Shown here: positions 9,951 through 27,626 of the stretch, one piece after another
Layout: each line of letters begins with the position of its first letter
Numbering within the stretch: position 1 is the stretch's first letter
Assembly: GCA_020851115.1 (NCBI GenBank)
Contig: JADZDJ010000126.1
Coordinates: forward strand, 1 to 32,453
Length of the DNA: 32,453 nt
Source of the DNA: Pirellulales bacterium
GTDB taxonomy: Bacteria > Planctomycetota > Planctomycetia > Pirellulales > JADZDJ01
Reading direction: 5' to 3'
Notes under the pieces: generated by a model
What the model was told of the DNA's origin: nothing
The model's database searches: none
Seen by the model: the letters and a program-made list of their open reading frames with translations, nothing else
Position numbers and translations under genes: made by a program

Positions 9951-10256
9951 TGGCACGATCCGGCCCACCCTTCAGTTTAGTATCGAATGCCCTCGGCACG
10001 TTCGCAAGGTCCGCAATACCAACCAGTTCGGTAAAATCGGCAGCCGGGTTCCGATTGTCCGGTTTGGCGCCGCTTGCAGACGAGCCATGTTGCAATCATA
10101 GGCCGCAGGCGCACGAAAAAGCGGCCCGATCCTAACTACGATACGGGCCGCTGTGCGTTTTGGTCTGACGAAAGTGGCGTAATGCTGCTGTGGGACGGGC
10201 ATTTTTCCCGAACTGGCAGGTTTCCAAGCCTGACCCACCGAGAACCTCTTGGCCGC
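9951..10256. other. Intergenic region between the adaptor cluster and the barrel gene
   Basis: These 306 bases contain the rho-independent terminator of the barrel gene (10116-10152) and presumably the promoter of the GAF-HlyD gene. No promoter with good boxes was recognised. Confidence 0.5.
10116..10152 (-). terminator. Rho-independent terminator of the BBP7-like gene
   Basis: A perfect 9-bp stem, AGCGGCCCG/CGGGCCGCT (10120-10128 with 10144-10152), encloses a 15-base loop. On the minus strand it is followed at once by a T-run (complement of the A-run 10116-10120). It lies about 105 bases beyond the stop of the barrel gene, so that transcript should end before the adaptor cluster. Confidence 0.75.
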
Positions 10257-11642
10257 TTACCATTTCGCTGTCAAACCGCCGCTGATCCCGTGGATGATCA
10301 AGTTCCGGCCGCCATGCACTTGCGTACCAGCCGCCGAATTTACGTTGAAATCGAACTGCTGTGTGCCGAGCGCCAAGCGGTTGATGAAGATCACATCGTA
10401 GCCCGCCTGAATCGAGAACGTCGGCCCGAGTGGAAATACAGCCCGCGCATTGAGTTCCGAAACATATGCGACGTCGCTATTGGTGCCGCTGGCATCGCGG
10501 AATGGATTATCGAATCCTTGATTGTCGGTGATCATCTGATGCTGGAAGCTGGCGTTGCCGTATATCCCCGTCTTGGCGACGAAGTCGAAGTTCACGAGGC
10601 CGAAGGCTTCGTATTGGCCGAGAACGCCGATCTGTCCGCCGTAGAGCCGATTGATGCAATCGACATTGTACCGGCCGATTCCGGCCGCGTCCGTGTCTTG
10701 ACCGACAATCGATGCATCGTCCGAGACTTCGACGTAGCGAAACCCGGCCAGGAATTGCAAGCTGCTCCAAGGATAGATGACGTTCGCTTCAAAACTATGG
10801 AAATCGGTGTTCGAACTGACCGTCATTCGATCGGCGCCAAAGAATGATGGGGTATCTGGATTGGCGGCCAAGGGGAACGGCACTTGAAGATTGTTATTGC
10901 CGCGCGATGTGTTCGATGCGTCCATATTGTCGGTCTGAAGATAGATAAACTGTGCGGCAATGCCGCTCGGCCCCATATATGTCAGCCAAGTTCTGAAGCC
11001 GGGTTCGTACTCGTAGTGCAGTTGTTGGGCCGAAAACAAGGTGTTGTCGTTATTGGTATTAAAGACCAACCCACGGTCCGGTTCGTGCTCGCGTCGGTAA
11101 TAAACTAATTCTGCACCGGCCGACCAGCACGAGCCCATTTTGCCGGGGAACCCTCGATTTTCGCCGTGCAACCAAGCCCACAGGCTGTGCAGATAACCGG
11201 GATGACCGGCGTTGTTGCAGTAGGGGTCGTTGCAGTAACCTTCGCTGGGGGCACCGCCGGAGTATCCTTCGCCATATCCCTGACCAACGTTGGCAGCGTA
11301 CTGTTGAGCCGGAGTCATGTCGCCTGCAGCGCCGCCGACCGCTTCTTGATACGCGGCCATCTGGGCCGCGTGCATTTGTTGACCATAGGGGTTGCTGCCG
11401 TCTTGGTACGGACGGCCGTTATAGAACAGCAGCCCGCCATCGTCGCTAACGCCGCGCGGCAGTTTGGGCCTGGGCGGCGCGGGAATCGCGGCATGATATT
11501 GGGCCGCACCCGGAAAAATACCTGGCGGAGTGCCGCCTGGGGTCATTGCATTGGGCGCGTATCCATAGGGATTTTGGGCACTGGCGACGATGGTCATCGC
11601 GGCCATCCAAGTGCTGGCCAGTGCCAAAGGCAAACGTCTCAT
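10257..11642 (-). CDS. BBP7-like outer-membrane beta-barrel protein
   Basis: The 461-residue protein starts with a signal peptide (MRRLPLALASTWMAAMTIVASAQ). A Pro/Gly/Tyr/Ala-rich low-complexity segment follows, about 25-160 (NPYGYAPNAMTPGGTPPG, then cysteines in CNDPYCNN), and then a beta-rich domain of alternating aromatic strands (TWLTYMGPSGIAAQFIYLQTD, SSLQFLAGFRYVEVSD, FDFVAKTGIYGNASFQH, FSIQAGYDVIFI). It ends in an aromatic residue (GGLTAKW), usual for outer-membrane barrels. This matches the planctomycete BBP7 barrel family by style. I chose the ATG at 11642 for its signal peptide and a GGAG Shine-Dalgarno 9 bases before. A longer frame (to 11834) has a non-hydrophobic extension. It is on the same strand as the adaptor cluster but separated by a terminator. 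Confidence 0.82.
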   Translation of the reverse strand: MRRLPLALASTWMAAMTIVASAQNPYGYAPNAMTPGGTPPGIFPGAAQYHAAIPAPPRPKLPRGVSDDGGLLFYNGRPYQDGSNPYGQQMHAAQMAAYQEAVGGAAGDMTPAQQYAANVGQGYGEGYSGGAPSEGYCNDPYCNNAGHPGYLHSLWAWLHGENRGFPGKMGSCWSAGAELVYYRREHEPDRGLVFNTNNDNTLFSAQQLHYEYEPGFRTWLTYMGPSGIAAQFIYLQTDNMDASNTSRGNNNLQVPFPLAANPDTPSFFGADRMTVSSNTDFHSFEANVIYPWSSLQFLAGFRYVEVSDDASIVGQDTDAAGIGRYNVDCINRLYGGQIGVLGQYEAFGLVNFDFVAKTGIYGNASFQHQMITDNQGFDNPFRDASGTNSDVAYVSELNARAVFPLGPTFSIQAGYDVIFINRLALGTQQFDFNVNSAAGTQVHGGRNLIIHGISGGLTAKW

Positions 11643-12091
11643 CGGTGATCTCCACCCCGAATTGCGGGAAGCTTGTTTGTCGCCGAACGGTTCGGAATCG
11701 ACAAATCGGCTGAGTTGGCGGGGGAGCTGGGCCGGTGAGGCACCGGGTGCATCACCAGACGATGTTGGCGCCGATAGCGCCGTCCAATGGATAAGGCCCC
11801 CCTTACCACCGTTTTCATCGGTACGACCGGCCATTCAACTCAATTGGAAAATGCCGTACCGGCGGTAAAGACGGCAAACTTTGGCAGGTTGGGCGATAGT
11901 TTAGGGAAGGTACAATGACTTTTCCGGTGCGTTGGCAACCAAGTCGGCGGCAGCTTGAAAATAGTCCGTTGAAAGCGTAGGGAAGGCCAACTTCCAGATG
12001 CGACATTACTTGATTTGCGAGCACGGCAGCCGGAAACTGATAGCAGAGTCGCGAAGCCGACAAGTTTTCTACCGACGTCGAATTCAATGCC
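11643..12091. other. Divergent intergenic region
   Basis: These 449 bases separate the minus-strand barrel gene from the plus-strand small helical gene. They should contain both promoters. Only small features such as the hairpin GGCGC-CGATA-GCGCC near 11770 were seen, and no good promoter boxes. Frames crossing it have no recognisable product. Confidence 0.4.
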
Positions 12092-12430: not shown

Positions 12431-13249
12431 ATGTACTACCTCGATCCTCACATCCACATGGTTTCGCGGACCACGGACGACTATGAGATGCTCGCCAAGA
12501 TGGGCTGCGTCGGCATGAGCGAGCCGGCGTTTTGGGCGGGGTTCGACCGCGGCAGCGTCGATGGCTTTCGCGATTACTTCCGGCAGCTCACGGAGTTCGA
12601 GCCGAAGCGCGCCTCGTGGTATGGCATCGCGCATTTCACTTGGCTCTGCATCAATGCCAAGGAAGCGGAAAACGTCAAGCTGGCGCGCGAAGTGATCGCG
12701 ATGATTCCCGAATTCATTCATGCGCCCGCCGTATTGGGGATCGGCGAAATTGGTCTGAATAAAAACACACGTAACGAATCGATCGTCTTTTTAGAGCATG
12801 TTCAGCTTGCTGAGCAACTTGGTGAGCAAATTCTCATCCACACGCCGCACTTGGAAGACAAGTACATGGGCACTCGGATGATTCTCGACATGCTGGCCGA
12901 CTTTCCAAAACTCGATCGTCGGCGAGCTTGTGTCGATCATGTCGAAGAGCACACGATTCGACATGTGTTGGAAGCAGGCTATTGGGCGGGAATGACCCTC
13001 TACCCCGTCAGTAAATGCACTCCGGAACGGGCCGTGGACATGGTCGAAATGTACGGCCCCGAGCGGCTGCTAGTGAATTCAGCCGGCGACTGGGGTCCGT
13101 CGAAGCCGACGGCGGTGCCCGATTTCATCTTGGCGATGCGGAAACGGGGCCATGCCGAATCACTCATCCGGCGGGTGGTTTACGAAAACCCGCTGAGCTT
13201 CTTCAGCCAAAGTCGCAACTTTCGGTTCACGCCGCCGGAAAGGGCCTGA
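12431..13249 (+). CDS. TatD-like metal-dependent hydrolase (amidohydrolase fold)
   Basis: The 272-residue predicted cytoplasmic TIM-barrel hydrolase has a complete set of TatD-type metal ligands: H7 and H9 (DPHIH), E106 (IGEIGLN), H137 (IHTPH), H170 (VDHVEEH) and D220 (NSAGDWG). The opening DPHIHMVSRTTDDYEMLAKMG resembles the TatD-like hydrolase of ebo-type clusters rather than canonical TatD DNases; I recall this from family knowledge and could not verify it. The rest of an ebo cluster (UbiA-like or dehydroquinate-synthase-like genes) is not in the window. It follows the small helical protein by 72 bases. Substrate is unknown. Confidence 0.8.
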   Translation: MYYLDPHIHMVSRTTDDYEMLAKMGCVGMSEPAFWAGFDRGSVDGFRDYFRQLTEFEPKRASWYGIAHFTWLCINAKEAENVKLAREVIAMIPEFIHAPAVLGIGEIGLNKNTRNESIVFLEHVQLAEQLGEQILIHTPHLEDKYMGTRMILDMLADFPKLDRRRACVDHVEEHTIRHVLEAGYWAGMTLYPVSKCTPERAVDMVEMYGPERLLVNSAGDWGPSKPTAVPDFILAMRKRGHAESLIRRVVYENPLSFFSQSRNFRFTPPERA

Positions 13250-13646
13250 GCGGGGCAAGGTGTCGGGGTTTCTGAAGTTTTGAATGGATGCCAATGCTCA
13301 AGCTTTGCCTACCAAGGGCCCGATGCTGGCCCGGTCATCAACATCACGGAACCCTGAACTCTGATCCTGAACCCTCTGCCCTGGCCGCTCTCTTCGCCCT
13401 TTGTGCTTGACATCACCTGGCGGTGCAATCACACTAATTCTGAATGTCGCAACCTTGGGGGCTTTGCGGGTTGCGCCGCTTATATACGGAACCAGCAAGC
13501 GCTCGCGCGACCCACGTGGCCTTCCCACCTTGCGCGCATGCGGGCGGAATCATAGTTACGCGAATCACGTGATATCCCAGTTGGCGGCACGCCGGTCGGA
13601 CGCGCGCCGCAAGGGTATCGGCCACTACTTCCTCGACGGCACGACC
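13250..13646. other. Gene-free stretch upstream of the metzincin gene
   Basis: These 397 bases contain a degenerate tract with repeated CCTGAAC/CCCTGA words (13349-13378), similar to other dispersed intergenic tracts. The frame of the downstream gene stays open back to 13401, but that extension has no signal-like or conserved character. No promoter pair was convincing. Confidence 0.4.
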
Positions 13647-16600
13647 ATGTTTCAGCGATCAGACGTAAGCGGCAGTTTCAAGTCTTTGCGGCTCCGGCGG
13701 CGAGGCGCGCGGCGAAAATACCCTGGCCAGCGGATGATTGCTCGTCGCACCGCTTGCGAAGCGCTGGAACCACGCAATCTGCTGACCACCACTTTGTTTA
13801 TCGATTTCGGCGAAGGCTTTGCCGGCGGCAAGATGCTCACGACAGTGGGGCAATTGCAGGGGGTCGCCATTGGGCCAGATTTAGGATTACCGGGGACCGA
13901 CGTGTTGGAATTCCAGTCGCTCCGCAGCGAGATGTCGAAGGTCAAATTCGACTACAACGCCGATGGCTTAGGCGGAACGAATTCCGACTACACCTTCCTG
14001 AAAAGCACGATCATGGAGACGGTTGCCCGGATCTATGAGCCTTTCGACGTCGACGTGAAAGAAGCCAAGGCACGAAGTATCTTCGATGTCGTGTCGGCCT
14101 TTAATCTCAACACCTTCGATCCCACCGGCGAGCACGATGCGTACGTCTTTGTCGCATCGATTATCGATACAACCGTTGGAGAGAGCATCACCGACCTCAT
14201 TGGGATTTACGGGATCGCATCGGGAATCGACCTGACCAGCGGGCCGGGAGGATTGCCGGGAAACAACGAAACCGATGAATCGGTGGTGGTTTGTGCAGAC
14301 GCAGTCTTAGAGGACTCCAGCAGGTTGGGATTCGACGCCGGCGCGGCCATGTCGAACGTCGTCGCGCACGAAGCCGGGCACACGTTCGGGCTGCGGCACA
14401 CCGTTGGTGTCGCCACACCTCTGGTTCCTGACCAGGCGCTGCAGAACCAGTCCGACATTATACGTGCTGGCGGTGACAACCCGCCGGTCAATTTGTTCAA
14501 TATCGGCATGATCACGCGGTACAACTTGATGGCCGACTATGACGCCTTGGGGACTAATATTAATCCTCTCGTCACCGTCAACTCCTACGAAAAGCTAGCA
14601 AGTGATCCCGACATTGGTTTGAACCCCGACTTCGGCGAATATGTGACGGGCACCGGCGCGTTCGACGATATCAGCATCACGCGAGTCAACGACACGACGG
14701 CGCTGGTTTCGGTGCAGACCTATCGCGATTCTTCGTTCTCGTTTAACGCGGCGATCGATGCCGGGCCGAACACCTACTTAATCGATTACACCGGCGGCAT
14801 CGTGGTCGATACTGGGCGCAGCAGCGACCGGATCGCCATCGATTCCGCGCTGGGCGTGAACATTACCGTGCGCGGTAGCCAGGGGGATAACGAACTCACG
14901 GTTTTTGCCAACGGCAATCCGAACGTGACCTTCACTCCCGAAGCCGACCCCGCGTTTGTGCCGGGCATCCCGGGGGCTACCAGCGGACGGATCGTAACCA
15001 CCGGAGGAGGATTTGGGACGACCACAATCGACTTCACCGAAGTCACCTCGAATAGCCGCGTGGTGTTGGATGGCTTCAACAAGTTCGACTACCTAGGGCC
15101 GCAGACGGGCAGCCTCAACTTGTCCATGAGCGGTGCCTCGATCACCGGCAAGGTCAATGGGCCGCAAGGCACGGTGGGAATCGTCGGCGTACGCTTCATT
15201 GACGTGGCGAACGTGACGATCGACACCTCGGTGGTCAATCCGGCCGAGAGCATCGATACCAACGACCAACTTGTCATCACGGGCGCCGGATTCGCCGCCC
15301 CAGGCTTGCAGAACTTCACCTTCACTCCCGGCCGGGGCAACGATACGCTGGTACTCGAAGCCCCCAACTTTACCTTGCCGGTGCTAGGGGGCGCATTTCT
15401 CTACGACGGCGGCAGCGGCAACAATACCATCGCCACCAATTCGGACACTAGTTTCATCTTGAACGACGGCAGTCTGGAAAGCACCAGCGGCGGTGTGGTG
15501 CAACTGATGCGCGTTGAGCTGGCGCGGCTTGCCGGCGGCGCGGGCGACAATTCGTTCTACGTTCAGACCTGGGCGGGCACAGGCTCGATCTTTGGCCTGG
15601 AGGGCGACGACAACTTTGTTTTTGGCGCAGGGGCGGACATCGACACGTTTACGGGCCAGTTCACCGTCGATGGGGGCGATGGAAACGATACGCTGACGCT
15701 CGACGATTCGGCCACTTTCGACACCGTCAATTACAATATCGGCGAAACCCGCGTTGCCGGCGACGACACGACGCCCACTCCCTTTGGCCGCATCTACTGG
15801 GAACCGACGCTCGACAATCTGGTCATGACCGGCACGCTGGGAAAAAATATCGACTTCGTGACTCCCAGCAAATTCTTGACCATCAAGATCGATGCACTCG
15901 ACCCGCCCAGCGGCACTCCACCGCTGGATGGCGATCAACTCAGTATTTTCTTCGGCGACGCCGCGGGGCGTCGGCTGATCGACCGCGGCACGGGCAACGG
16001 CATCTGGACCTTCACCAGCGGCGAGAAGGAGATCTACTTCGAGAACATCGAGTTCATGGGCTCGTTGGTTGCAGCCGCCGCCGAGGCCGGCGACGGCAGG
16101 CCGCTGGTGAAAGTGTACAACTCGCTGACTAACGAGCTGGTCTATAAGTTTTACGCCTACGACCAAGGCTTTAAAGGTGGCGTTCAGGCAACCATGGCCG
16201 ACGTCAACGGCGACGGCATTCTCGATGTGATCGTGGCGCCGGGTGCGGGGCGCAGCGGCGAAGTCAAAGTCTTCGACAGCGCTTTGATGCAAGCACTGGC
16301 GGCGTTTGATCCACGGAAGCTCGTCGAATCGCCAGATGCCGGCGCGCAAATTGGACCGTCGATCTTCCCCGAAGGCGTCGGTTATCGCAGCGGGCTACAT
16401 GTTGCCGCGGGTGACGTCGATGGCGACGGCGATATCGACGTGATCACGTCGCGTGACACAGGACGCGGCAAGATTCGCGTGTACGAAAAGACGGCCGCCG
16501 ATACCTATCTCCGCACACTAACGTTCACCCCCTATAGCAAGAGCGAAGGCGTCACCAAAGGCGCAGTCCTCGCCGTCGGCGACGTCGATGGCGACGGCCG

Positions 16601-17048
16601 CGACGAGATTGTTACAGCGCCCGGTGCCGGAGCATCGGCACGAATTAAGGTTTGGGAAGGCGAAAGCGGAGTTCGCACGCGGCAATTCTTTGGCTTCGAA
16701 TCGCGATTCAGAAATGGCGTTTCGCTGGCAGTCGGGGATGCCGATGGCGACGGCCGCGATGAAATTTTTGTCGCCGCAGGAGCCGGTGGCGGATCGCGCG
16801 TCCGAACGTTCAGCCAATATGGAACCTTGAGGAATGAATTCAAAGCCTATAGCAGTGGAAACACCAATGCTCCGGTTCAATTGGCCGCCCGCGCCAGCGA
16901 CCCGCAGGACAAAGTGGCGCTCTATACCGCTCAAGGCAACGACGGTCGTACCAGCGTCATTCGCGTGTTAAATCCGCTCACCGGCACGACGGTCGATTCG
17001 TTCTTCGAAACCGATCCAGATTTCGGCGGCGGCATTGCCATGGGCTAG
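13647..17048 (+). CDS. Exported LEPR-xLL protein with an intact metzincin site and FG-GAP-like repeats
   Basis: The 1133-residue protein has a basic N-terminus then LEPRNLL (40-46), the planctomycete export/anchor-type signature. The N-terminal domain carries AMSNVVAHEAGHTFGLRHT: H241, E242, H245 and H251 form the metzincin zinc/catalytic motif HExxHxxGxxH. M295 in YNLMADY lies where the Met-turn should be. Beta-rich regions follow, including degenerate Ca-binding-like repeats (DGGSGNNTI, EGDDNFVFG, DGGDGNDTL). The C-terminus has four FG-GAP/VCBS-like repeats with DxDxDGxxD-type sites: DVNGDGILD, DVDGDGDID, DVDGDGRDE and DADGDGRDE. It is likely surface-exposed or secreted with protease activity. 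I chose the ATG at 13647 because the basic signal region starts there; the frame remains open upstream. No Shine-Dalgarno is evident. It has a paralogue at 20087-23497. Confidence 0.87.
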   Translation: MFQRSDVSGSFKSLRLRRRGARRKYPGQRMIARRTACEALEPRNLLTTTLFIDFGEGFAGGKMLTTVGQLQGVAIGPDLGLPGTDVLEFQSLRSEMSKVKFDYNADGLGGTNSDYTFLKSTIMETVARIYEPFDVDVKEAKARSIFDVVSAFNLNTFDPTGEHDAYVFVASIIDTTVGESITDLIGIYGIASGIDLTSGPGGLPGNNETDESVVVCADAVLEDSSRLGFDAGAAMSNVVAHEAGHTFGLRHTVGVATPLVPDQALQNQSDIIRAGGDNPPVNLFNIGMITRYNLMADYDALGTNINPLVTVNSYEKLASDPDIGLNPDFGEYVTGTGAFDDISITRVNDTTALVSVQTYRDSSFSFNAAIDAGPNTYLIDYTGGIVVDTGRSSDRIAIDSALGVNITVRGSQGDNELTVFANGNPNVTFTPEADPAFVPGIPGATSGRIVTTGGGFGTTTIDFTEVTSNSRVVLDGFNKFDYLGPQTGSLNLSMSGASITGKVNGPQGTVGIVGVRFIDVANVTIDTSVVNPAESIDTNDQLVITGAGFAAPGLQNFTFTPGRGNDTLVLEAPNFTLPVLGGAFLYDGGSGNNTIATNSDTSFILNDGSLESTSGGVVQLMRVELARLAGGAGDNSFYVQTWAGTGSIFGLEGDDNFVFGAGADIDTFTGQFTVDGGDGNDTLTLDDSATFDTVNYNIGETRVAGDDTTPTPFGRIYWEPTLDNLVMTGTLGKNIDFVTPSKFLTIKIDALDPPSGTPPLDGDQLSIFFGDAAGRRLIDRGTGNGIWTFTSGEKEIYFENIEFMGSLVAAAAEAGDGRPLVKVYNSLTNELVYKFYAYDQGFKGGVQATMADVNGDGILDVIVAPGAGRSGEVKVFDSALMQALAAFDPRKLVESPDAGAQIGPSIFPEGVGYRSGLHVAAGDVDGDGDIDVITSRDTGRGKIRVYEKTAADTYLRTLTFTPYSKSEGVTKGAVLAVGDVDGDGRDEIVTAPGAGASARIKVWEGESGVRTRQFFGFESRFRNGVSLAVGDADGDGRDEIFVAAGAGGGSRVRTFSQYGTLRNEFKAYSSGNTNAPVQLAARASDPQDKVALYTAQGNDGRTSVIRVLNPLTGTTVDSFFETDPDFGGGIAMG

Positions 17049-17206
17049 CGATAGCAGATCAGAAAGGTTGCAATGGATAGGCTGGTTGGAAAAAGTGCGA
17101 TGGCTGCCCGCGGCCGCTGGCATCGAATCCTTGAAATAAGGCGGTTGGGAGCAGCCGTCACTGCATGACCCTTGAAAACTGAGCTACGACTCAATTTACA
17201 GTGAAT

Positions 17207-17235
17207 TTGACTCATTTGCCCCCATCCGGTATACC
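17207..17235 (+). promoter_or_regulatory. Sigma70-like promoter of the M8-like gene
   Basis: TTGACT (17207-17212) and TATACC (17230-17235) are separated by exactly 17 bases, about 33 bases before the start codon. The short leader contains the strong Shine-Dalgarno GGAGGAG (17255-17261). This supports separate transcription of the M8-like gene from the upstream metzincin gene. Confidence 0.55.
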
Positions 17236-17268
17236 GAGAGAAGCCCTTGCTATTGGAGGAGACGGGAC

Positions 17269-19635
17269 ATGAAGATGCGTAACTGGCGGCGCTGGCGGCC
17301 CTCGGCCCGTGAGGCTGGCCGCGTCCGGTCTGCCGCCGTTGAAATGCTCGAACCGCGACTGGCGCTGAAGTGGGCGGGCGTTCCCCCGGCTTCGATCGCT
17401 CCTCCAGTCGTTTACACGGATGTAGTGCTCGATGCCGACAGCGACGCGACGGGTACGGCGGCGATCACCAGTAGCGAGATCGACTATTACAAGTTCCAGG
17501 CTTCCTCGACCGGCCCCTATGTGATTTCCGCCACCACGCCATCGAGCAACCTGAACCCGATCCTTGGCGTCTTTTCCGCCACCGGATCGCGGATTACTTA
17601 CAACGACAACATTTCGCGTCGGAACCTCGACAGCCGGGTTGCCGTCAACTTGCAAGATGGCGTGACCTATTTTGTTGGCATCACCAATCGCAGCAGCTCG
17701 TCGCACGGATCGTATACCTGGAAAATCGATGGCTTATGGCCGAGTCTACCCGACGACTCGTACGAGCAAAACGACTCGTTCGCCGCGGCTTCCGACCTGG
17801 GCACGCTCGACTCGGAAACCACGATCGGCAACCTGGCGTTGCGGGACCAAGCAGATTGGTTCAAGTTCACCACAATCAACACCGGCGAGGTTGCCCATTC
17901 GGTTTCGATTGAGTTCGAACATCGCCGCGGCGATTTGGATTTGGATCTCTCGAACGATCTGGGTGAAGTCGTCGGACGTTCGAGCAGCCGCGGCAATGTC
18001 GAATCGATCTCGCTCGCCGGGCTGCCGGCGGGTACGTATTACCTCCGCGTCTTTGGCTATCAGGGCGCCGTCAATCCGAGCTACCGGCTCTCGATCGATC
18101 CACCTACGGAAGCTCCCCCCTTGCCGACAGTCGATTTGTTCGGAAGTTTGCTCAAGCTGGATAGCGGCGTGAGTTGGGAGCAAGCCCTCCCGGTTCAAGC
18201 GGTCATCCAAAATGCCGGTTCGACCGACGCCGGGGCATTCAATGTCAAGTGGTATCTGTCGAAGGACGCCAAATTCTCCTCCGGCAGCGACATTTTGCTG
18301 GAGCGCACACCGGGTGGCGGCGATTCGTACCGAGTCTCTGGCGTTTCGGGAGGAAGCAACAGCATTGTCATCTCGGTCAATTTGCAATTACCCGAGCAAC
18401 CCACGGGCTGGGATGGAAAATTGTACTATCTGGTGATGGTCACCGACTCGGACGGCGAAATCACCGAAATGTCTGAAAACAACAACGGCGGCCAGATCGG
18501 CGGCGGCTTCGACAATCGCGCTTTGGCCTTTGGCCGCAAGGTCCGGCTGCCCAATGAAGGGTTTGACATCGATCTCTCGATGAAGGGCCTGACCGTCAAC
18601 GAAGAGGCGTTTGTAAAAGCGGCCGCGTACCGCTGGGAAGAAATCATCACGGGCGACTTGCCAGATCTTGTCGTGCAATTCCCCAGGCCCGGCGATTCGA
18701 AAATTCTGGACGATCTGCTGATTGGCGTCAAACAAGACACGATCGACGGCCCAAGCACCATTTTGGCGGTTGGCGGCCCCTCAGACCCGCGCGGAGTCGA
18801 TTGGAACAGTTTGCCGTTTTCCGGAAACGTGATCTTCGATCGAGCCGACATCAGCGATTTGGAACAGAGCGGCGATCTTTATTATGTGGCGCTGCACGAA
18901 ATCGGCCACGTTCTAGGTTTGATCACCATATTCCCATCGCTGATCGCGCAAGATGACCAAGGCAACAATATCTTCACCGGCCCTCAAGCCACTGCCGAGT
19001 ACGTCATGCTGTTCGGTCTCGATCCTGCAGAGACAAAAGGCGTGCCCCTCAGCGGCGCGCACTGGCCGGAAGACCTCTTTGGCGACGAGTTGATGACCCC
19101 GAACCTCAATTCGCCTAGCCTGATCTCGACCATCTCAATCGCGGCGCTGGCCGACATGGGATACAAAGTCGATTTGACGAAGGCCGACCCATGGACGGCG
19201 CCAGCCTCTGCCGCGTCGTCCGGTTCGCTGCCGGGCGGAGGGGTCGCCGGTCAATATGCCGTCACAGCGGCCTCGCCTGCGGCGGGCGCGGATGCCGGCG
19301 CTCCACAGGGTTTGTTGGGTTCCACGTTGCTGGCTTCCTTGGCATCAAATTCGACTTCCATTGCGCCGTCGGCCGCGCTGGCGATTTCGTTGCCTGGCTC
19401 CGCGAACGCTGAACCGATCAAGAATTTCGTTCCCCGCGCCGCTGGGCTTTTGCGTGACATGGAACGGCCGATCGATGACTTGCAGCTCGAGCGCGCCATG
19501 CCCAGTGCGTCGGAGGTCGATTCGCTGTTGGCGGACACGACGGAAGACGGCGATCGTTCGACATCGAATCACTCGCACGACGCCGACGAAGCGCTGCTGC
19601 TTGAGTGGCGGCTAACGACGATTTGGGAAGCCTAG
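17269..19635 (+). CDS. Exported LEPR protein with PPC and CARDB-like domains and leishmanolysin-like (M8) peptidase
   Basis: The 788-residue protein starts with a basic leader and LEPRLAL (27-33). Two PPC-like beta domains follow, about 46-155 and about 160-285 (YYKF, DWFKFTT, AGTYYLRVFG). A CARDB-like domain covers about 290-405 (VIQNAGSTDAGAF..., ITEMSENNN). The peptidase domain has HEIGHVLGL with H543, E544 and H547. A distant H598 (GAHW) and M609 (ELMTP) are 11 residues apart, the same spacing as the third zinc ligand and Met-turn of leishmanolysin (from recall: H334, M345), and SIAALADMGY resembles that family's following segment. The C-terminal tail (about 645-788) is Ala/Ser-rich. The zinc site looks complete. 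GGAGGAG precedes the ATG. The non-catalytic PPC/CARDB domains sit N-terminal to the protease, which is unusual. Confidence 0.87.
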   Translation: MKMRNWRRWRPSAREAGRVRSAAVEMLEPRLALKWAGVPPASIAPPVVYTDVVLDADSDATGTAAITSSEIDYYKFQASSTGPYVISATTPSSNLNPILGVFSATGSRITYNDNISRRNLDSRVAVNLQDGVTYFVGITNRSSSSHGSYTWKIDGLWPSLPDDSYEQNDSFAAASDLGTLDSETTIGNLALRDQADWFKFTTINTGEVAHSVSIEFEHRRGDLDLDLSNDLGEVVGRSSSRGNVESISLAGLPAGTYYLRVFGYQGAVNPSYRLSIDPPTEAPPLPTVDLFGSLLKLDSGVSWEQALPVQAVIQNAGSTDAGAFNVKWYLSKDAKFSSGSDILLERTPGGGDSYRVSGVSGGSNSIVISVNLQLPEQPTGWDGKLYYLVMVTDSDGEITEMSENNNGGQIGGGFDNRALAFGRKVRLPNEGFDIDLSMKGLTVNEEAFVKAAAYRWEEIITGDLPDLVVQFPRPGDSKILDDLLIGVKQDTIDGPSTILAVGGPSDPRGVDWNSLPFSGNVIFDRADISDLEQSGDLYYVALHEIGHVLGLITIFPSLIAQDDQGNNIFTGPQATAEYVMLFGLDPAETKGVPLSGAHWPEDLFGDELMTPNLNSPSLISTISIAALADMGYKVDLTKADPWTAPASAASSGSLPGGGVAGQYAVTAASPAAGADAGAPQGLLGSTLLASLASNSTSIAPSAALAISLPGSANAEPIKNFVPRAAGLLRDMERPIDDLQLERAMPSASEVDSLLADTTEDGDRSTSNHSHDADEALLLEWRLTTIWEA

Positions 19636-20086
19636 GGATCAACTCCAACCATCGACAAATCGCGGCACAAATTGCCTGCCGACCATCGGCAGGGCGTGCT
19701 GAGGCTGTGTTTCGTCCGACCGAGCGAAGCCCTGGAACCCAAAAGGCAAATGGTTGGCCGGCTTCGTCACCTGGCGGAGCTTTCCGCAGATATTGATCTG
19801 GAAATTCAGGCCGTCAACTCAATTTCATTCTTACTCTTGCCCGCAAAAATCACTTGACAGCCCGCCTTACCCTAATGAGACTGAGAGATACGTAGCCGAT
19901 AGGGGCGCTGCGCACCAGGAATGAGCTTGCCTGCCGGAACATCTTCTCTGCAAAGTCTGCGGCATCGATGGCGCCCAACCCGGGCGGCAGTGCCGAGCGC
20001 TTGAACTTCATGGAGGGGACAGGCAATTTCGATCCATTCCACTCGACCCACTGCATCGATTTCTTTCCTTCCACGCGGTACACACC
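19636..20086. other. Gene-free stretch between the second and third LEPR genes
   Basis: These 451 bases hold the hairpin at 19675-19693 and a TTGACA at 19854-19859 that lacks a good -10 at 16-18 bases. No gene is supported; frames crossing it have no recognisable product. The third LEPR gene therefore probably has its own, unrecognised promoter. Confidence 0.4.
19675..19693 (+). terminator. Hairpin after the M8-like gene (possible terminator)
   Basis: CCTGCCGA-CCA-TCGGCAGG forms a perfect 8-bp stem about 40 bases after the stop codon. There is no T-run, so intrinsic termination is uncertain; it could stabilise the 3' end instead. Confidence 0.35.
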
Positions 20087-23000
20087 ATGGCACTGGAACA
20101 GCCCGGCATGCTTTCGTCTTGGATCTCTCAACTTCGACATCGCGGTTCGAAGGGCTTGCGCACGTCGGCCGATAGCCGCCGCGCTCGATTTCGCCGTCCC
20201 CCGCTGGCGATCGAGTCGCTCGAACGCCGAGAGCTGATGGTGAGCCGCGTGTTTTTGGATTTTGGCAACGGGTTCACGACACTGGGGAGCGGCGTGTTCA
20301 CGGGCACGACGATCATGGACTTCAAGGGCGAAGATTTAACGGAGAAGCTGGGAGGGGCGGCGGCTGCCGCCGGCAACGGATATACATCGTCCATCGGCGC
20401 ATTTGCCCCGGGCGACTACCGAATGGTGGGCTTCAGCGACGTCGTCAACGTGCTCAGCTCCGTGACCGTTACGACCGATCCGCTCATTCTGGAGCGCGCC
20501 ATTTCTCGACAAATCAGGCGCGCCTTGGAACCGTTCGATATTCAAGTGATTTCCTCCATCGATGGTCTCAACGACACAATTCCAGAACCGACGTTTTTCG
20601 GCTTCCCGTCGGCGGACCTCGACCAAGCCAATGCCTTGATTTCGCTCAACGAAATTGCCGCCGATGATGATGACGACACCGCCAATGCCACGGTGCCGCA
20701 ATTTGGCGCCGATGATGTCTATCTGTTCTTTGGCGGGCTATACGCGCAAGAAGACGAGGTTTTGATTCCGCTCAATATTCCGCTGACGGCCAAGTTTGGC
20801 GTCGAAGTCGAATCGCAAGGCTCGCTGCCCAATCGGCTCGATTCCGGCGGCATCGTGGACGTCAACTTCTGGATCAATCGCGTCCTCGGTCCGACGGGCA
20901 CTGGCGGTACGCTCAACACCGCCATGGCGAATGCCGCGATGTACATCACCGGCTGGGATTACGGTCTGGTCGAGGTGGAAGACGGCAAGCGCGGGCAGTA
21001 CACGCAATATTTCGATTCGGATACGCGGCTCATCGACCAATCTAGCGCGATGGTCGAAGCCGGCTGGACCGAATCCTTTGTCGACTACTACAGCCCCGAC
21101 GGAGTTGCCAAGCCGATCAGCGATCAACATTCGGCGTACTTCAATCGCAACTCGTTGATGCAAAACGGCCTCGACTTCCATCAGCTCTTACGGCAGGGCA
21201 CGCTGGGCAATCCGCCGGTCTTGAATGTGCCGGGATTTCCGCTGCCGCCGCCAGGTTTTCCGGAGTTTTCTCCGCCGACCTACACGATCAATACCGATCC
21301 GAACGTTCGAGTCAGCCTGTACGACTTGCTGGCCAACGATCCCGACATTGGCCGCAATCCCGATGTACAGTACGTCACCGGCACCGGAGCATTCGATCGC
21401 ATTCGGATCCAAAAGCTCGATGGGAATCGCGCATCGGTTTCGATCCAATCGTATCGCGATTCGAATTTCAACGGCTTGATCCAGGCGAACTCGTATACGA
21501 TCGACCTGTCGAAAATCATTATCCCTGGCCGCCGCGACTCGGGGCAGCCCTTCCGCCTGATCATTGAGGGGTGCAATAGCGACGATCAAATATTTCTGGA
21601 TGATCGACTGGGCGTGCAGGTGGTGGTCCACGGCGGGCCGGACCTCGAACGGTTGATGATCAGCGGCAGTGGCGTCGAGAACGTTCAATACACCGCCATG
21701 GGATCCGCCGTTGATCCATTCCATGAGCAATTAATTCCCGAGTTGTTGCTTCCCGCGGCGGCCGGGCGGATGGTGATCACCGGTCGGTTCGGTTCGACGA
21801 CGGTGCTAGTCGATCAATTCAACCCGATGAACGCCAGCGCCGTGCGGCTGGATAACTTCAATTCTCTCCAGTACAACTTGCCCGGGTACTTGAATAGTGA
21901 CTTGAATGTGACGGTTCCACGTTCGGGAGAATGGCGAATTGCCGGTACGCTAGACAACCCCTTGTTTCCGATTCCTGGCTTTCCGACGCCGCACGACGCG
22001 TCGACAGGTAAACTGGATTTTACCCAGATCGGGCATCTGGTGGTCGATACATCCCTCGGCACGGCGGACGACAACCTTACGTTCAGCACCGATGCCGCGC
22101 TGCCGCCGGGACTGACGAGCGTCTTCATCTCGATGGGGGGCGGAATCGATCACTTGACGTTCGACGATAGCGGCAATCTAGCCAACCTCGACTATTTCCT
22201 CTCGCCGACCGAGGTCGATTATGGGACGGGAGTCTCGACGAAGTTCACCGGATATGGCTACCACTGCGTACAACAATTGACGGTCAATGGTACGCAGGGG
22301 GGCAACGACTTCGTCGTAGTTCCCAGCACGGTGACCGAAATGCGCATTAACGGCGACGACCCACCCAGTGGTTCGTTCGGCGAAGATTCGCTGACGATTC
22401 GCCGCTCGGGAATTAGCGGCGCGACAGTCACGCCCAACGGCATTGGCAATGGCACTTGGAGCTTTACCAGCGGACACAAAGACATCGTTTTTACCGGCAT
22501 CGAAGAGTTGACTGCGCCTCCGGCGATTGTGGCCTTGACCGGCGCGTCGGACACGGGCCGGGGGCAGCCGCTGGTCAAAGTCTACGAAGCGGCCAGCAAC
22601 GAATTGCTCTACAGCTTCTATGCCTATCCAAGATCGTTTCGCGGCGGCGTGCGCGTGGCCGTGGGCGACATGAACGGCGATTCGACGCCTGACCTCGTTG
22701 TGGCCCCCGGCGCGGGCCGCGGCGATGTGAAGGTATACGACGGAGCGCTACTGCAAACGATGGCCGATGCCGATGCGTTTGTCGCCGATCCAGATTCGGC
22801 ACTGCTCGACACGTTTATCCCGGAAAGCGGCAGCTATCGCAACAAGGGGCTTTTCGTGGCCGTCGGCGACATCGATGGCGACGGCGACAACGACATCGCC
22901 ACTTCGCGTTCGCGCGGCCAGACGATGGTCCGCGTTTTCGACAACGACGGCACGGGCTTCTTCAGCCGCTTGACGGCTTGGCGGCCCTACAGTACGAACG

Positions 23001-23497
23001 TCGTCTCCGGCGCGGCAGTCGCGGTGGCCGATCTCGACAACGATGGACTGGCGGAGGTCATCACGGCGCCTGGCGCTGGTGTGAAAACGGAAATCCGGGT
23101 TTTCGACGGCTTCGGCGGCGGACTGATTCGCAAATTCAACGCCTTTGAAAGTTCGTTCCGTAACGGCGTCTCGCTGGCTGCCGGAGATGCCGACGGCGAC
23201 GGCAAAGCCGAGATTTTTGTCGGCGCAGGCATCGGCGGCCGATCGCGGGTGCGAATGTTCTCGCCCCTCGGCGACTTGAAAGAGGAATTCCGAGCCTATA
23301 CCAGCGGCAACGTGAACTCCCCATTGAGAATTGCGACCGTCGATCCCGACGGTGCAGACCGCGTGCTGCTGTTTGTCGGCCAAGGCAACGACGGTAGGTC
23401 GCACCGCATTCGCCTGTTCGATCCGCTCACGGGTAATCGCATCGATGAATTTCTCGAGCGCGATCCGGCCTTTGACGGCGGAGTATTTCTCGGTTAG
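20087..23497 (+). CDS. Exported LEPR-like protein, pseudo-metzincin paralogue with FG-GAP-like repeats
   Basis: The 1136-residue paralogue of the metzincin at 13647-17048 has a basic leader and LERRELM (45-51) in place of LEPRxLL. The same layout follows: an N-terminal domain, a conserved segment (YDLLANDPDIGRNPD versus YEKLASDPDIGLNPD) leading into VTGTGAFD, beta-rich middle, four repeat sites (DMNGDSTPD, DIDGDGDND, DLDNDGLAE, DADGDGKAE), and the ending FDGGVFLG (versus FGGGIAMG). At the zinc site the aligned stretch AMANAAMYITGWDYGLVEV (279-297) has Y286, I287, W290 and E296 where the paralogue has H, E, H and H. The fold looks conserved but it cannot bind zinc in the metzincin way. It is probably a binding or structural protein. 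The ATG at 20087 has no Shine-Dalgarno; M8 is an alternative. Confidence 0.86.
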   Translation: MALEQPGMLSSWISQLRHRGSKGLRTSADSRRARFRRPPLAIESLERRELMVSRVFLDFGNGFTTLGSGVFTGTTIMDFKGEDLTEKLGGAAAAAGNGYTSSIGAFAPGDYRMVGFSDVVNVLSSVTVTTDPLILERAISRQIRRALEPFDIQVISSIDGLNDTIPEPTFFGFPSADLDQANALISLNEIAADDDDDTANATVPQFGADDVYLFFGGLYAQEDEVLIPLNIPLTAKFGVEVESQGSLPNRLDSGGIVDVNFWINRVLGPTGTGGTLNTAMANAAMYITGWDYGLVEVEDGKRGQYTQYFDSDTRLIDQSSAMVEAGWTESFVDYYSPDGVAKPISDQHSAYFNRNSLMQNGLDFHQLLRQGTLGNPPVLNVPGFPLPPPGFPEFSPPTYTINTDPNVRVSLYDLLANDPDIGRNPDVQYVTGTGAFDRIRIQKLDGNRASVSIQSYRDSNFNGLIQANSYTIDLSKIIIPGRRDSGQPFRLIIEGCNSDDQIFLDDRLGVQVVVHGGPDLERLMISGSGVENVQYTAMGSAVDPFHEQLIPELLLPAAAGRMVITGRFGSTTVLVDQFNPMNASAVRLDNFNSLQYNLPGYLNSDLNVTVPRSGEWRIAGTLDNPLFPIPGFPTPHDASTGKLDFTQIGHLVVDTSLGTADDNLTFSTDAALPPGLTSVFISMGGGIDHLTFDDSGNLANLDYFLSPTEVDYGTGVSTKFTGYGYHCVQQLTVNGTQGGNDFVVVPSTVTEMRINGDDPPSGSFGEDSLTIRRSGISGATVTPNGIGNGTWSFTSGHKDIVFTGIEELTAPPAIVALTGASDTGRGQPLVKVYEAASNELLYSFYAYPRSFRGGVRVAVGDMNGDSTPDLVVAPGAGRGDVKVYDGALLQTMADADAFVADPDSALLDTFIPESGSYRNKGLFVAVGDIDGDGDNDIATSRSRGQTMVRVFDNDGTGFFSRLTAWRPYSTNVVSGAAVAVADLDNDGLAEVITAPGAGVKTEIRVFDGFGGGLIRKFNAFESSFRNGVSLAAGDADGDGKAEIFVGAGIGGRSRVRMFSPLGDLKEEFRAYTSGNVNSPLRIATVDPDGADRVLLFVGQGNDGRSHRIRLFDPLTGNRIDEFLERDPAFDGGVFLG

Positions 23498-25204: not shown

Positions 25205-25568
25205 GCGAAGGTGGCGGGACTTGAACCCGCGACTTCCAACGTGACAGGCACGATCAAAGCCGCGCTGAAATTACTATATTTCCCGAAGAATATGGGAATT
25301 CTATCGCTAATTGTAGGGTTTGCAACCCTTCGCAAAGAGGAGCTATCTTGCCCGGCAATTTCCCCAAGTCGCGGATTGCGCGTCGGAAAATATTTCGGTC
25401 CTCACCAGAATTTGTGGGCGATTGAGTACGACAGCGCTAAATTCTTGAACCAAGCAAAAAAGGACATGCGTTGCTTGACGATGGTTGCGGTTGTGCCGAG
25501 AATTGATTGTCTCGCCTAAATATCCTCCGCGCTTGCCAAGGTTCTCCTTTATTCTTCTTTGCGTCCCC
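25205..25568. other. Gene-free stretch holding the tRNA remnant
   Basis: These 364 bases contain the tRNA-Asp 3' half at 25206-25248 and a perfect 6-bp inverted repeat AGGGTT-TGC-AACCCT (25315-25329). No integrase, transposase or other gene is supported in it. It must also contain the promoter of the M28 peptidase gene, which I could not identify. Confidence 0.45.
25206..25248 (-). pseudogene. 3' half of a tRNA-Asp(GTC), truncated at the anticodon loop
   Basis: Read on the minus strand this gives the loop CTGTCAC with anticodon GTC, 3' anticodon strand GTTGG, variable loop AAGTC, T arm GCGGG-TTCAAGT-CCCGC, acceptor strand CACCTTC and discriminator G. CCA is not encoded. The matching 5' half (acceptor GAAGGTG, D arm, CCAAC) is absent upstream, and no such 5' half is found nearby, so it is not a functional tRNA. 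Such fragments often mark attachment sites of elements that integrate at tRNA 3' ends. Confidence 0.7.
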
Positions 25569-27626
25569 ATGCCAACTCCTAAACTCGATTTCTACAGCCG
25601 GAGTTTTTTCGCCGCACTGATAGCCGCGGTCACTTGCTGGCAAATTGGTGCGGCCGAAAAAAATATCACCAACAAGAGTGTCGATGCCACCGCGGCCGAG
25701 TCACGCTTGACATCCGCGGTCGGCTATTTGGCTTCCGACGAGTTAGAGGGGCGTGGCTTGGGCACGAAGGGCATCGATCGAGCCAGCGACTACATTGCCG
25801 AACAATTTCACGCGATGGGCCTCAAGACCGAGTTGTACGATGGCACACCGTTTCAGAAATTCACCGTGACGACGAGTTCGCAACTGGGGCCCAAAGAAGA
25901 GAATGTATTGTCGCTCGTCGGCCCCGGCAAGCGAAGCAGTAAAGAAGATCACCTGCAACTAAAGCTCGGCGAAGATTTCTCGCCATTAGCGGTCGGCAGC
26001 TCGGCGAAGTTCAGCCTGCCGCTTGTGCTGGTCGGCTATGGCATCACCGCCCCAAAACTCGGTTATGACGACTATGCCGGTGTGAATGCCAAAGGGAAGG
26101 CGGTCGTGGTGCTGAGGCACGAACCTCAGCAGAATAATCCGCACAGCAACTTTGATGGCACCGCCGATTCACCATTCGCACCGATCGCTCGCAAAGTTTC
26201 CAACGCTTACGAACATGGCGCTGAAGCCGTATTGCTGGTAACGGACGAAGCCGAAATCGACAAACGAGTAGCCGCCGACCAACAACGAGTGCAGCAAACG
26301 ATCGACGAACTAAATAAGCTTGGTGTGGAGTTCCAGAAGGCTGTCTCGCCGACCAAAGAGGGCACGAAACAGTATTACCAAAAGGTCGCCGAGCTTGGCG
26401 AGCAAATTCGTAAGCGGGCAGATTCGACCGTCGGCGAGCTCGACCCGCTGCTATCGTTCACGCGCGGCGGAGAGGCCGCCGAAGGGCGACGAATTCCTGT
26501 AATTCACGTACGCCGTGCTGCAATTGAGCCAGCGATTCAAGCGGCGCTTGGCATCGATTTGGCGACTCTTGAGAAGCAAATCGATCAAGACGCCAAGCCT
26601 CGCAGCAGCGAACTAGTCGGTTGGAAAGTAGTTGGCCAGACCAGTGTCGAACGAGTGGAGGCCGAGACAAAGAACGTCGTTGCGATTTTAGAAGGGGAAG
26701 GGCCTCTCGCGGAAGAAACCATTGTCGTCGGTGCGCATTACGATCATCTCGGCCGCGGTACTGCTAACTCACGATCCCCCGGCTCCAACGAGATTCACAA
26801 CGGGGCCGACGACAATGCCTCGGGTGTCGCGGCGCTACTGGAAGTTGCCCGCGAACTGGCTGGGCGCGAAAAGAAATTGCCGCGTCGGATTGTATTCGTT
26901 GCCTTCACCGGTGAAGAACGCGGCTTGCTCGGCAGTGCCCACTATGTGCGCGAACCTGTCGTGCCGCTGACGAAGACCATCGCCATGCTCAACATGGATA
27001 TGGTTGGCCGGCTCGACGACGACAAGCTGATTATTTACGGCACGGGCACCGCTGCCGAGTGGCCGGACCTGATCGATGAACTCAACGAAAAGTACGCGTT
27101 CAAAATCACACGGCATCCCGAAGGGTTCGGCCCGAGCGATCATTCGTCGTTCTACGCCAAAGAGATCCCCGTGCTCCATTTTTTTACCGGCACGCACAAG
27201 GATTATCATCGACCGACCGACGATGTGGACAAGATCAACGTCCCAGGAATGCGCCGCGTTGCCGAAATGGTTGCTGAAACCGCCGTACGATTGGCCGTGA
27301 GCGATGGCAAGCCGACGTACCAGGAAGCAAAAGGAAAACCTGAAGTTGCCAAGAGTGGCGATCGACCATACTTCGGTAGCATTCCCGACTTTTCACAAGA
27401 TCAGCCCGGGTATTCATTGATGGGCGTGAGCAAAGGCAGCCCTGCGGAAAAGGCTGGCCTGGTGAGCGGCGACATTATCATCGGCCTAGGCGACAGCCGC
27501 ATTGGCAATTTGGAAGACTTCGACAGCGCACTTCGAAAGTTCAAAGGCGGCGACAAGGTGGCCGTCACCGTGAAACGTGGAACGGAAGAGAAAAAGCTGA
27601 ATGCGACGCTCGATCCGCCGCGGTAG
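25569..27626 (+). CDS. Exported M28-family aminopeptidase with C-terminal PDZ domain
   Basis: The 685-residue protein has a signal peptide (about 1-29, AALIAAVTCWQIGAA). An N-terminal region (about 40-150) and a PA-like insert (about 150-365) precede the M28 zinc peptidase core (about 370-580). Likely metal ligands and catalytic residues are H390 (AHYDH), D414 (GADDNASG), the acidic pair E449/E450 (TGEERG), D477 (MDMVG) and H547 (YHRPTDD). A PDZ-like domain occupies about 605-685 (GSPAEKAGLVSGDIIIGLGD). It probably acts in the periplasm or outside as a di-zinc aminopeptidase; natural substrate is unknown. I chose the ATG at 25569 for the signal peptide; a longer frame from 25485 lacks support. 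It is convergent with the HAD gene. Confidence 0.9.
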   Translation: MPTPKLDFYSRSFFAALIAAVTCWQIGAAEKNITNKSVDATAAESRLTSAVGYLASDELEGRGLGTKGIDRASDYIAEQFHAMGLKTELYDGTPFQKFTVTTSSQLGPKEENVLSLVGPGKRSSKEDHLQLKLGEDFSPLAVGSSAKFSLPLVLVGYGITAPKLGYDDYAGVNAKGKAVVVLRHEPQQNNPHSNFDGTADSPFAPIARKVSNAYEHGAEAVLLVTDEAEIDKRVAADQQRVQQTIDELNKLGVEFQKAVSPTKEGTKQYYQKVAELGEQIRKRADSTVGELDPLLSFTRGGEAAEGRRIPVIHVRRAAIEPAIQAALGIDLATLEKQIDQDAKPRSSELVGWKVVGQTSVERVEAETKNVVAILEGEGPLAEETIVVGAHYDHLGRGTANSRSPGSNEIHNGADDNASGVAALLEVARELAGREKKLPRRIVFVAFTGEERGLLGSAHYVREPVVPLTKTIAMLNMDMVGRLDDDKLIIYGTGTAAEWPDLIDELNEKYAFKITRHPEGFGPSDHSSFYAKEIPVLHFFTGTHKDYHRPTDDVDKINVPGMRRVAEMVAETAVRLAVSDGKPTYQEAKGKPEVAKSGDRPYFGSIPDFSQDQPGYSLMGVSKGSPAEKAGLVSGDIIIGLGDSRIGNLEDFDSALRKFKGGDKVAVTVKRGTEEKKLNATLDPPR

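Follow-up and report, generated by a model that had tools for sequence, protein, structure and literature searches.

Inactive relatives of metalloproteases are well studied in animals. In the inactive ADAMs (ADAM2, ADAM11, ADAM22, ADAM23 and others), a metzincin domain without zinc ligands is carried by an exported or surface protein, and in ADAM11 and ADAM22 the first ligand His is replaced by Gln (PMC11266112); the available sections of this 2024 review of inactive metalloprotease relatives do not mention planctomycetes. For planctomycetes, the accessible part of another report describes RRLxxExLExRxLLA as the signal by which surface proteins of Rhodopirellula baltica are exported, and lists 52 genes with such a LEPR-type leader in Tuwongella immobilis (PMC8567305). 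Here we analysed a window (the whole stretch of DNA, 32,453 nt) of contig JADZDJ010000126.1 from a Pirellulales bacterium, in which three genes on the forward strand, P1, P2 and P3 (13647–23497), encode LEPR-type proteins. We consider it probable that P1 and P3 are an exported tandem pair turning from protease to non-catalytic surface binding, with their own promoters and a common leader, and that P2 is independent of them. The inactive ADAMs would be the closest parallel, as a likeness and not as membership, since the proteins described here are bacterial, carry an FG-GAP propeller in place of the disintegrin and cysteine-rich domains, are encoded as a tandem pair and have a private leader.

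P1 and P3 were full-length paralogs, with 43% identity over 486 amino acids (aa) and 32% over 304 aa. They share a layout of LEPR-type leader, zincin-type domain, repeat linker and C-terminal FG-GAP propeller. The zincin-type domain opens with a strand F(I/L)DFG and has a conserved YVTGTGAFD segment, and the FG-GAP repeats of P1 and P3 scored above the Pfam cut-off, with 61.5 and 59.4 bits for PF01839 and 50.3 and 66.1 bits for PF13517, respectively. In a tree of C-terminal regions, the pair formed one clade (support 100/99) relative to the other propeller proteins of the genome.

P1 carries the full HExxHxxGxxH zinc-binding motif as HEAGHTFGLRH. A model of its zincin domain, built with AlphaFold, like that of P3, from a 13-row alignment, had a predicted local distance difference test (pLDDT) score of 62.1 and a best Foldseek E value of 0.013. 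With VIA-align, adamalysin-type snake-venom metalloproteinases filled the top rows for this model (best Z 8.5, root-mean-square deviation 3.7, 145 aligned residues), and an archaemetzincin reached Z 7.6. The top solved matches of the modelled domains lie among M12B adamalysins/reprolysins (P1) and archaemetzincins (P1 and P3), which makes a metzincin fold a tentative assignment, and P1 shares the zinc-binding motif with these peptidases. However, no Pfam peptidase family reached its cut-off with P1, Reprolysin_3 scoring 19.9 bits (cut-off 22.4) and 21.6 bits on the domain alone. A sequence search for solved relatives gave none that was convincing. The initial annotation, made from the window's letters, had called P1 an intact metzincin; this holds for the zinc-binding motif, but not for the Met-turn methionine (see below) or for the Pfam peptidase cut-off.

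P3 has no HExxH. The segment YITGWDYGLVE aligns to HEAGHTFGLRH, and other residues stand in place of the catalytic Glu and of each of the three zinc ligands. Homology of the P3 domain was assessed with a profile made from 17 intact members only and cut before the YVTGTG segment. This profile matched P3 with an E value of 1.5e-6 and 23.5 bits, compared to 9.6 bits for the best of 700 shuffled decoys, and matched the two P3 orthologs of the sister genus (G1_B and G2_B) with E values of 1.4e-7 and 2.5e-8. In hhalign, the P3 domain aligned to the intact family with a probability of 97.5. Judged from these profiles, the P3 domain is homologous to the intact zincin domains, in agreement with the earlier view of P3 as a dead, metzincin-derived member.

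The family of the host comprises three genomes in two genera, namely its own (G000) and two of a sister genus (G001 and G002); the first and second genes of the pair are called A and B, those of the window being P1 and P3. The tandem pair lies beside a TatD-like gene, in conserved order, in all three genomes. The order in G002 (locus L082) is the TatD-like gene, a LEPR-type gene on the other strand, A and B, and G001 has the same order divided over two contig ends (L090 and L081). The TatD-like proteins of the two sister-genus genomes were 86% and 83% identical to the window copy; P3 and B were 39% identical, and P1 and A 32% over 836 aa. The opposite-strand gene between TatD-like gene and A (L082:4919-6595 and L090:2299-4125; 54% mutual identity) had no Pfam match in its G002 copy.

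The N-terminal (P1-type) family is rare. At E ≤ 1e-8, it was matched in 8 of the 296 genomes sampled from the order and in 14 of the 397 from the class, and its named relatives come from eleven loci of planctomycete metagenome-assembled genomes (MAGs). Removal of near-copies left 27 rows, two of which were dropped as fragments of counted genes, giving 25 non-redundant members; L112, which ends before the site, was excluded. HExxH and the third His were intact in 18 of the 25 and gone in seven, which were P3 (W_P3), L137, L123 from an uncultured Gemmataceae, and the two B and two A proteins of the sister genus (G1_A and G2_A being the latter). HExxH is thus missing from both genes of the sister-genus pair, and among up to five candidates scored per genome, none in that genus was intact. 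Several motif-less members have Gln for the first zinc-ligand His (QGAAE, QMAAI and QAAAQ), as in the ADAM11 and ADAM22 described in the accessible part of the review, where several inactive ADAMs with this exchange also retain the Met-turn. The Met-turn column, which follows the active-site helix, held Met in six of the seven motif-less members and Ile in 14 of the 18 intact ones, in which the latter differ from M12B peptidases and archaemetzincins; relatives with Met in this column include C29, G293, L114 and L136. In the N-terminal tree, A and B each formed one clade (100/100) and L123 stood apart; L137 was not in the tree. The fewest changes on this tree are at least two, and the well-supported branches alone force one. 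Losses of the motif recur within the P1-type family.

B appears to have been maintained since its loss of the site. Its frames are open in three genomes (1136–1255 aa, 39–60% identity). In the P3-type block around the lost site, 28 of 50 positions were invariant, compared to 104 of 397 elsewhere in the domain, a level reached by 4 of 447 circular windows (the block was picked after viewing the alignment). By the NG86 method, the nonsynonymous (dN) and synonymous (dS) distances were 0.28 and 1.74 for the G001–G002 B pair, and 0.54 and 1.75 for P3 and the G002 B gene, with dS near saturation.

Upon comparing the upstream regions of the A and B genes, we found an element shared by all six pair genes, which is new here. 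It consists of CTTGACA-N17-(G/C)ANACT, a few bases and then a hairpin, and stands 234–320 bases before the start (241 for P1, 234 for P3, 246 and 300 in G002, and 255 and 320 in G001). As the P1 copy (13405–13478) falls between the two candidate starts of P1, and the leader length from the later one matches relatives, the start at 13647 is favoured over the TTG at 13401. A strict pattern found the P3 copy alone in the window, and a pattern relaxed after the P1 copy had been seen by eye found exactly the P1 and P3 copies; neither occurred in 100 shuffles. In the three family genomes (14.6 Mb), TTGACA-N14-20-GANACT-N8-26-GGGGCG matched five times, each time ahead of an A or B gene, whereas the reversed control gave no match. 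A covariance model, R1, built from the six copies scored these at 61–80 bits, and beyond them nothing exceeded 20.2 bits in the family genomes at E ≤ 0.1. Matches in other genomes of the order were weak (best 28.3 bits). Thirteen loci were inspected, one being our own copy as a check, and most of the promoter-looking matches fitted the promoter half only; the genes behind them were housekeeping genes (uppS-like and HU-like) and one of LEPR type, indicating a common promoter type and not the leader. The last of these, L162 in G140, has CTTGACA-N17-TAAACT 112 bases before its start. No known RNA family matched the leader at its curated score. A consensus promoter scan of the plus strand in both upstream stretches reported no promoter-like site, its rules on the second hexamer being stricter than these sites. 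In the hairpin, three of eight pairs showed changes on both sides; the covariation was matched by 7 of 500 shuffles and was far lower in slid registers, and the four sister-genus hairpins folded with z of about −1.8 to −2.5. We read the element as a putative sigma70-like promoter with a 5ʹ hairpin specific to the A–B pair.

For the leader only, the element might instead be a DNA operator bound by a regulator rather than an mRNA hairpin. Its core AGGGGCGCT is invariant in five of the six copies, including the loop side, its arms form an inverted repeat, and the two hairpins of the window fold no better than shuffles. Against an operator, the two-sided changes preserve pairing at three of eight positions, and the place right behind the promoter-like site favours the 5ʹ end of a transcript. 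We regard an operator as a serious possibility, although a hairpin is what we would bet on.

According to the reading that we favour, the ancestor of P1 and P3 would have been a protease, whose zincin domain descended from a metzincin-type zinc endopeptidase and was converted to a non-catalytic module in the planctomycete family of the host. In the P3/B lineage, the loss of the catalytic Glu and the three zinc ligands would predate the separation of the two genera and have been followed by retention of a conserved replacement patch, and A would have died as well in the sister genus. P1, with its full motif kept, is probably an active ectoprotease; what the pair has in common would likely be a binding role at the cell surface or in the matrix, for which proteolysis is optional. 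The three genes would have separate sigma70-like promoters, and transcripts of the pair genes may begin at or close to the conserved hairpin private to the pair. P2 would be an independent M8-like exported protease with its own promoter, which among the three family genomes came to lie between P1 and P3 only in that of the host. With both pair members dead in the sister genus, where the search turned up no intact relative, the role preserved by selection cannot depend on proteolysis. The sequences best support surface binding, through the propeller and the remodelled zincin domain, to which P1 may add cutting.

Several observations weigh against this reading. The Met-turn column of P1, set by sequence alignment, holds Ile (DIIR) and not Met. 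In the N-terminal tree, the dead A and dead B clades joined at 88/87 with P1 outside, so that P1 and A may not be orthologous, and a single loss may underlie both A and B; the C-terminal tree does not resolve the relation of P1 to A. Besides the unremarkable folding of both window hairpins, that of P1 pairs in another register than the other five. The model of the P3 zincin domain was poor (mean pLDDT 52.4), and its best solved matches, archaemetzincins at Z 6.4 (3lmc) and 6.1, lie below the trust level of the tool. As amidases were almost equal in Z to these archaemetzincins in VIA-align, and Foldseek with the P3 model gave nothing convincing (endonuclease V fragments ranked first), the claim of descent for P3 rests on the sequence profiles.

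A broader proposal, which we put forward tentatively and at somewhat less than even confidence, is that in a lineage of planctomycetes an exported metzincin family has turned into a two-gene, largely non-catalytic surface-recognition system with a private hairpin leader, a bacterial parallel to the inactive ADAMs. Among the matches listed in a search of open-licence papers, there was no description of the A–B pair or of planctomycete pseudo-metzincins. Among close relatives, the tandem pairs or single genes range from intact through half-dead to fully dead, which makes the shift from enzyme to binder traceable step by step, and the private leader offers a handle on how planctomycetes control a surface-protein pair. 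The common leader and the recurrent motif loss are the parts worth following.

P3 could also be a non-catalytic partner that regulates or scaffolds an active P1, in the manner of dead ADAM relatives. The two genes are adjacent paralogs with a common leader, P3 has a conserved patch at its pseudo-site, and the available sections of the review ascribe regulatory or scaffolding roles to inactive homologs of metallopeptidases (PMC11266112). In the sister genus, however, the pair is kept though both members are motif-less and no intact member was found, which makes such a partnership unlikely. The same finding speaks against the module of an active and a dead protease that the initial annotation had proposed.

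P2 shows no homology to P1 in sequence comparison. It combines CARDB and two PPC domains with an M8-like domain, in which HEIGHVLGL represents the HExxH motif, GAHW supplies the distal His and ELMTP the Met-turn, as in its relatives. In this motif, the distal H-W and ELMT, P2 is like the planctomycete leishmanolysin-related M8 peptidases, relatives of which are common in the order, but its Pfam M8 score of 20.0 falls short of the cut-off of 21. A P2 paralog on contig C266 of the same genome clears the cut-off with 43.4. P2-type matches were present in 56 of the 296 genomes of the order (E ≤ 1e-15), many of them covering the PPC part only.

All three genes are real open reading frames (ORFs) on one strand, and the gaps of 220 and 451 bases between them agree with those given before. 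Each protein has a basic N-terminal stretch followed by a LEPR-type motif of the planctomycete pattern ExLExRxLL. These signatures, too, had been recognised correctly, although all three proteins fall below the curated score of PF07595 (cut-off 25.5), P3 with 11.9 bits and P1 and P2 not listed. As 0 of 28 PF07595 matches across the genome exceeded the cut-off, the model is insensitive here. Ahead of P2, the good promoter claimed earlier could be seen by eye as TTGACT-17-TATACC, but was not reported by the consensus scan. R1 had no match before P2, where the pair-specific promoter and hairpin element is lacking. With conserved promoter-like sites ahead of the first and third genes, separate transcription of P1, P2 and P3, as originally suggested, is supported.

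That P1, P2 and P3 act together as a three-gene surface-protease module, as first proposed, was rejected by the neighbourhood comparison, and we think it very unlikely. It has in its favour three consecutive same-strand LEPR-type genes with nothing between them, and a further LEPR-type gene on the other strand beside the pair in G001 and G002, which suggests that the site gathers such genes. However, the A–B pair of G001 and G002 has no M8-like gene; the P2 relatives of these genomes sit elsewhere and have only the PPC-bearing part in common. A tblastn search with P2 in 20 loci around family members, from the family and other planctomycetes (some from the same genome twice, several clipped by contig ends), found nothing at E ≤ 1e-4. 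Among the five genomes of the order sample with both P1- and P2-kind matches (G000, G001, G002, G029 and G293), the two were adjacent in G000 only, and P2 is without the common leader. Among the genomes examined, the trio is peculiar to that of the host and the A–B pair is conserved (three of three family genomes, two genera, with its private leader). The initial annotation is thus partly supported: it was right in anatomy, and what the survey upholds is the pair and not the trio.

Decay of P3 towards eventual gene loss is highly improbable, because the loss of every catalytic residue and the fast divergence (39% identity, against 83–86% for the TatD-like neighbour) are set against frames open in three genomes, dN below dS, the conserved replacement patch, and a promoter and leader that were kept.

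Table 1. Positions of the genes, motifs and upstream elements of the P1–P3 locus, numbered along the window
Feature	Position	Strand	Remark
TatD-like hydrolase, synteny anchor ahead of the pair in three of three family genomes	12431..13249	+	
P1 leader: promoter-like CTTGACA-N17-CACACT, then hairpin in a different register	13405..13478	+	61 bits, copy in model
P1, LEPR-type exported protein, 1133 aa, zincin domain with HEAGHTFGLRH, repeat linker, FG-GAP propeller	13647..17048	+	
P1 LEPR-type leader motif EALEPRNLL	13758..13784	+	
P1 active-site motif HEAGHTFGLRH, residues 241-251	14367..14399	+	
P1 C-terminal FG-GAP propeller module	16089..17045	+	
TTGACT-N17-TATACC, promoter-like, ahead of P2, without hairpin element	17207..17235	+	by eye
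P2, LEPR-type exported protein, 788 aa, two PPC domains, CARDB, M8-like peptidase domain	17269..19635	+	
P2 LEPR-type leader motif EMLEPRLAL	17341..17367	+	
P2 motif HEIGHVLGL, residues 543-551	18895..18921	+	
P3 leader: promoter-like CTTGACA-N17-GAGACT, then hairpin with AGGGGCGCT	19852..19922	+	64.9 bits, copy in model
P3, LEPR-type exported protein, 1136 aa, P1 paralog, zincin-derived domain without zinc ligands, FG-GAP propeller	20087..23497	+	
P3 LEPR-type leader motif ESLERRELM	20213..20239	+	
P3 pseudo-active site YITGWDYGLVE, residues 286-296, aligned to the P1 motif	20942..20974	+	
P3 C-terminal FG-GAP propeller module	22556..23494	+	

On C266 of the host genome (L087:4452-9923), the P2 paralog adjoins two genes related to those 3ʹ of B in the sister genus, where the relatives are L081:1661-4644 and L082:17635-19899. 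This arrangement points to a rearrangement of the region.

Within the P1-type family, relatives such as L122, L113 and L114 have a dockerin-like stretch (DxNxDxxxxxxDxxxL) in the part of the zincin domain that precedes its first long helix, which is a further difference from the M12B peptidases and archaemetzincins; P1 keeps a trace of it and B lacks it. One family gene (G349:C1:4931786-4933812; L134 and L139) appears to be interrupted, with its halves in different frames about 900 bases apart. L118, from a K_Offshore MAG, has two further LEPR-type ORFs around its family member, the sole such cluster in the eleven named loci.

Upstream of the locus in the window, the other strand carries an M50-like plus HlyD gene (4476-6713), an HlyD gene (7902-9968) and a BBP7 porin-like gene (10257-11834), and downstream of the pair lies an M28 peptidase gene with a PDZ domain (25485-27626).

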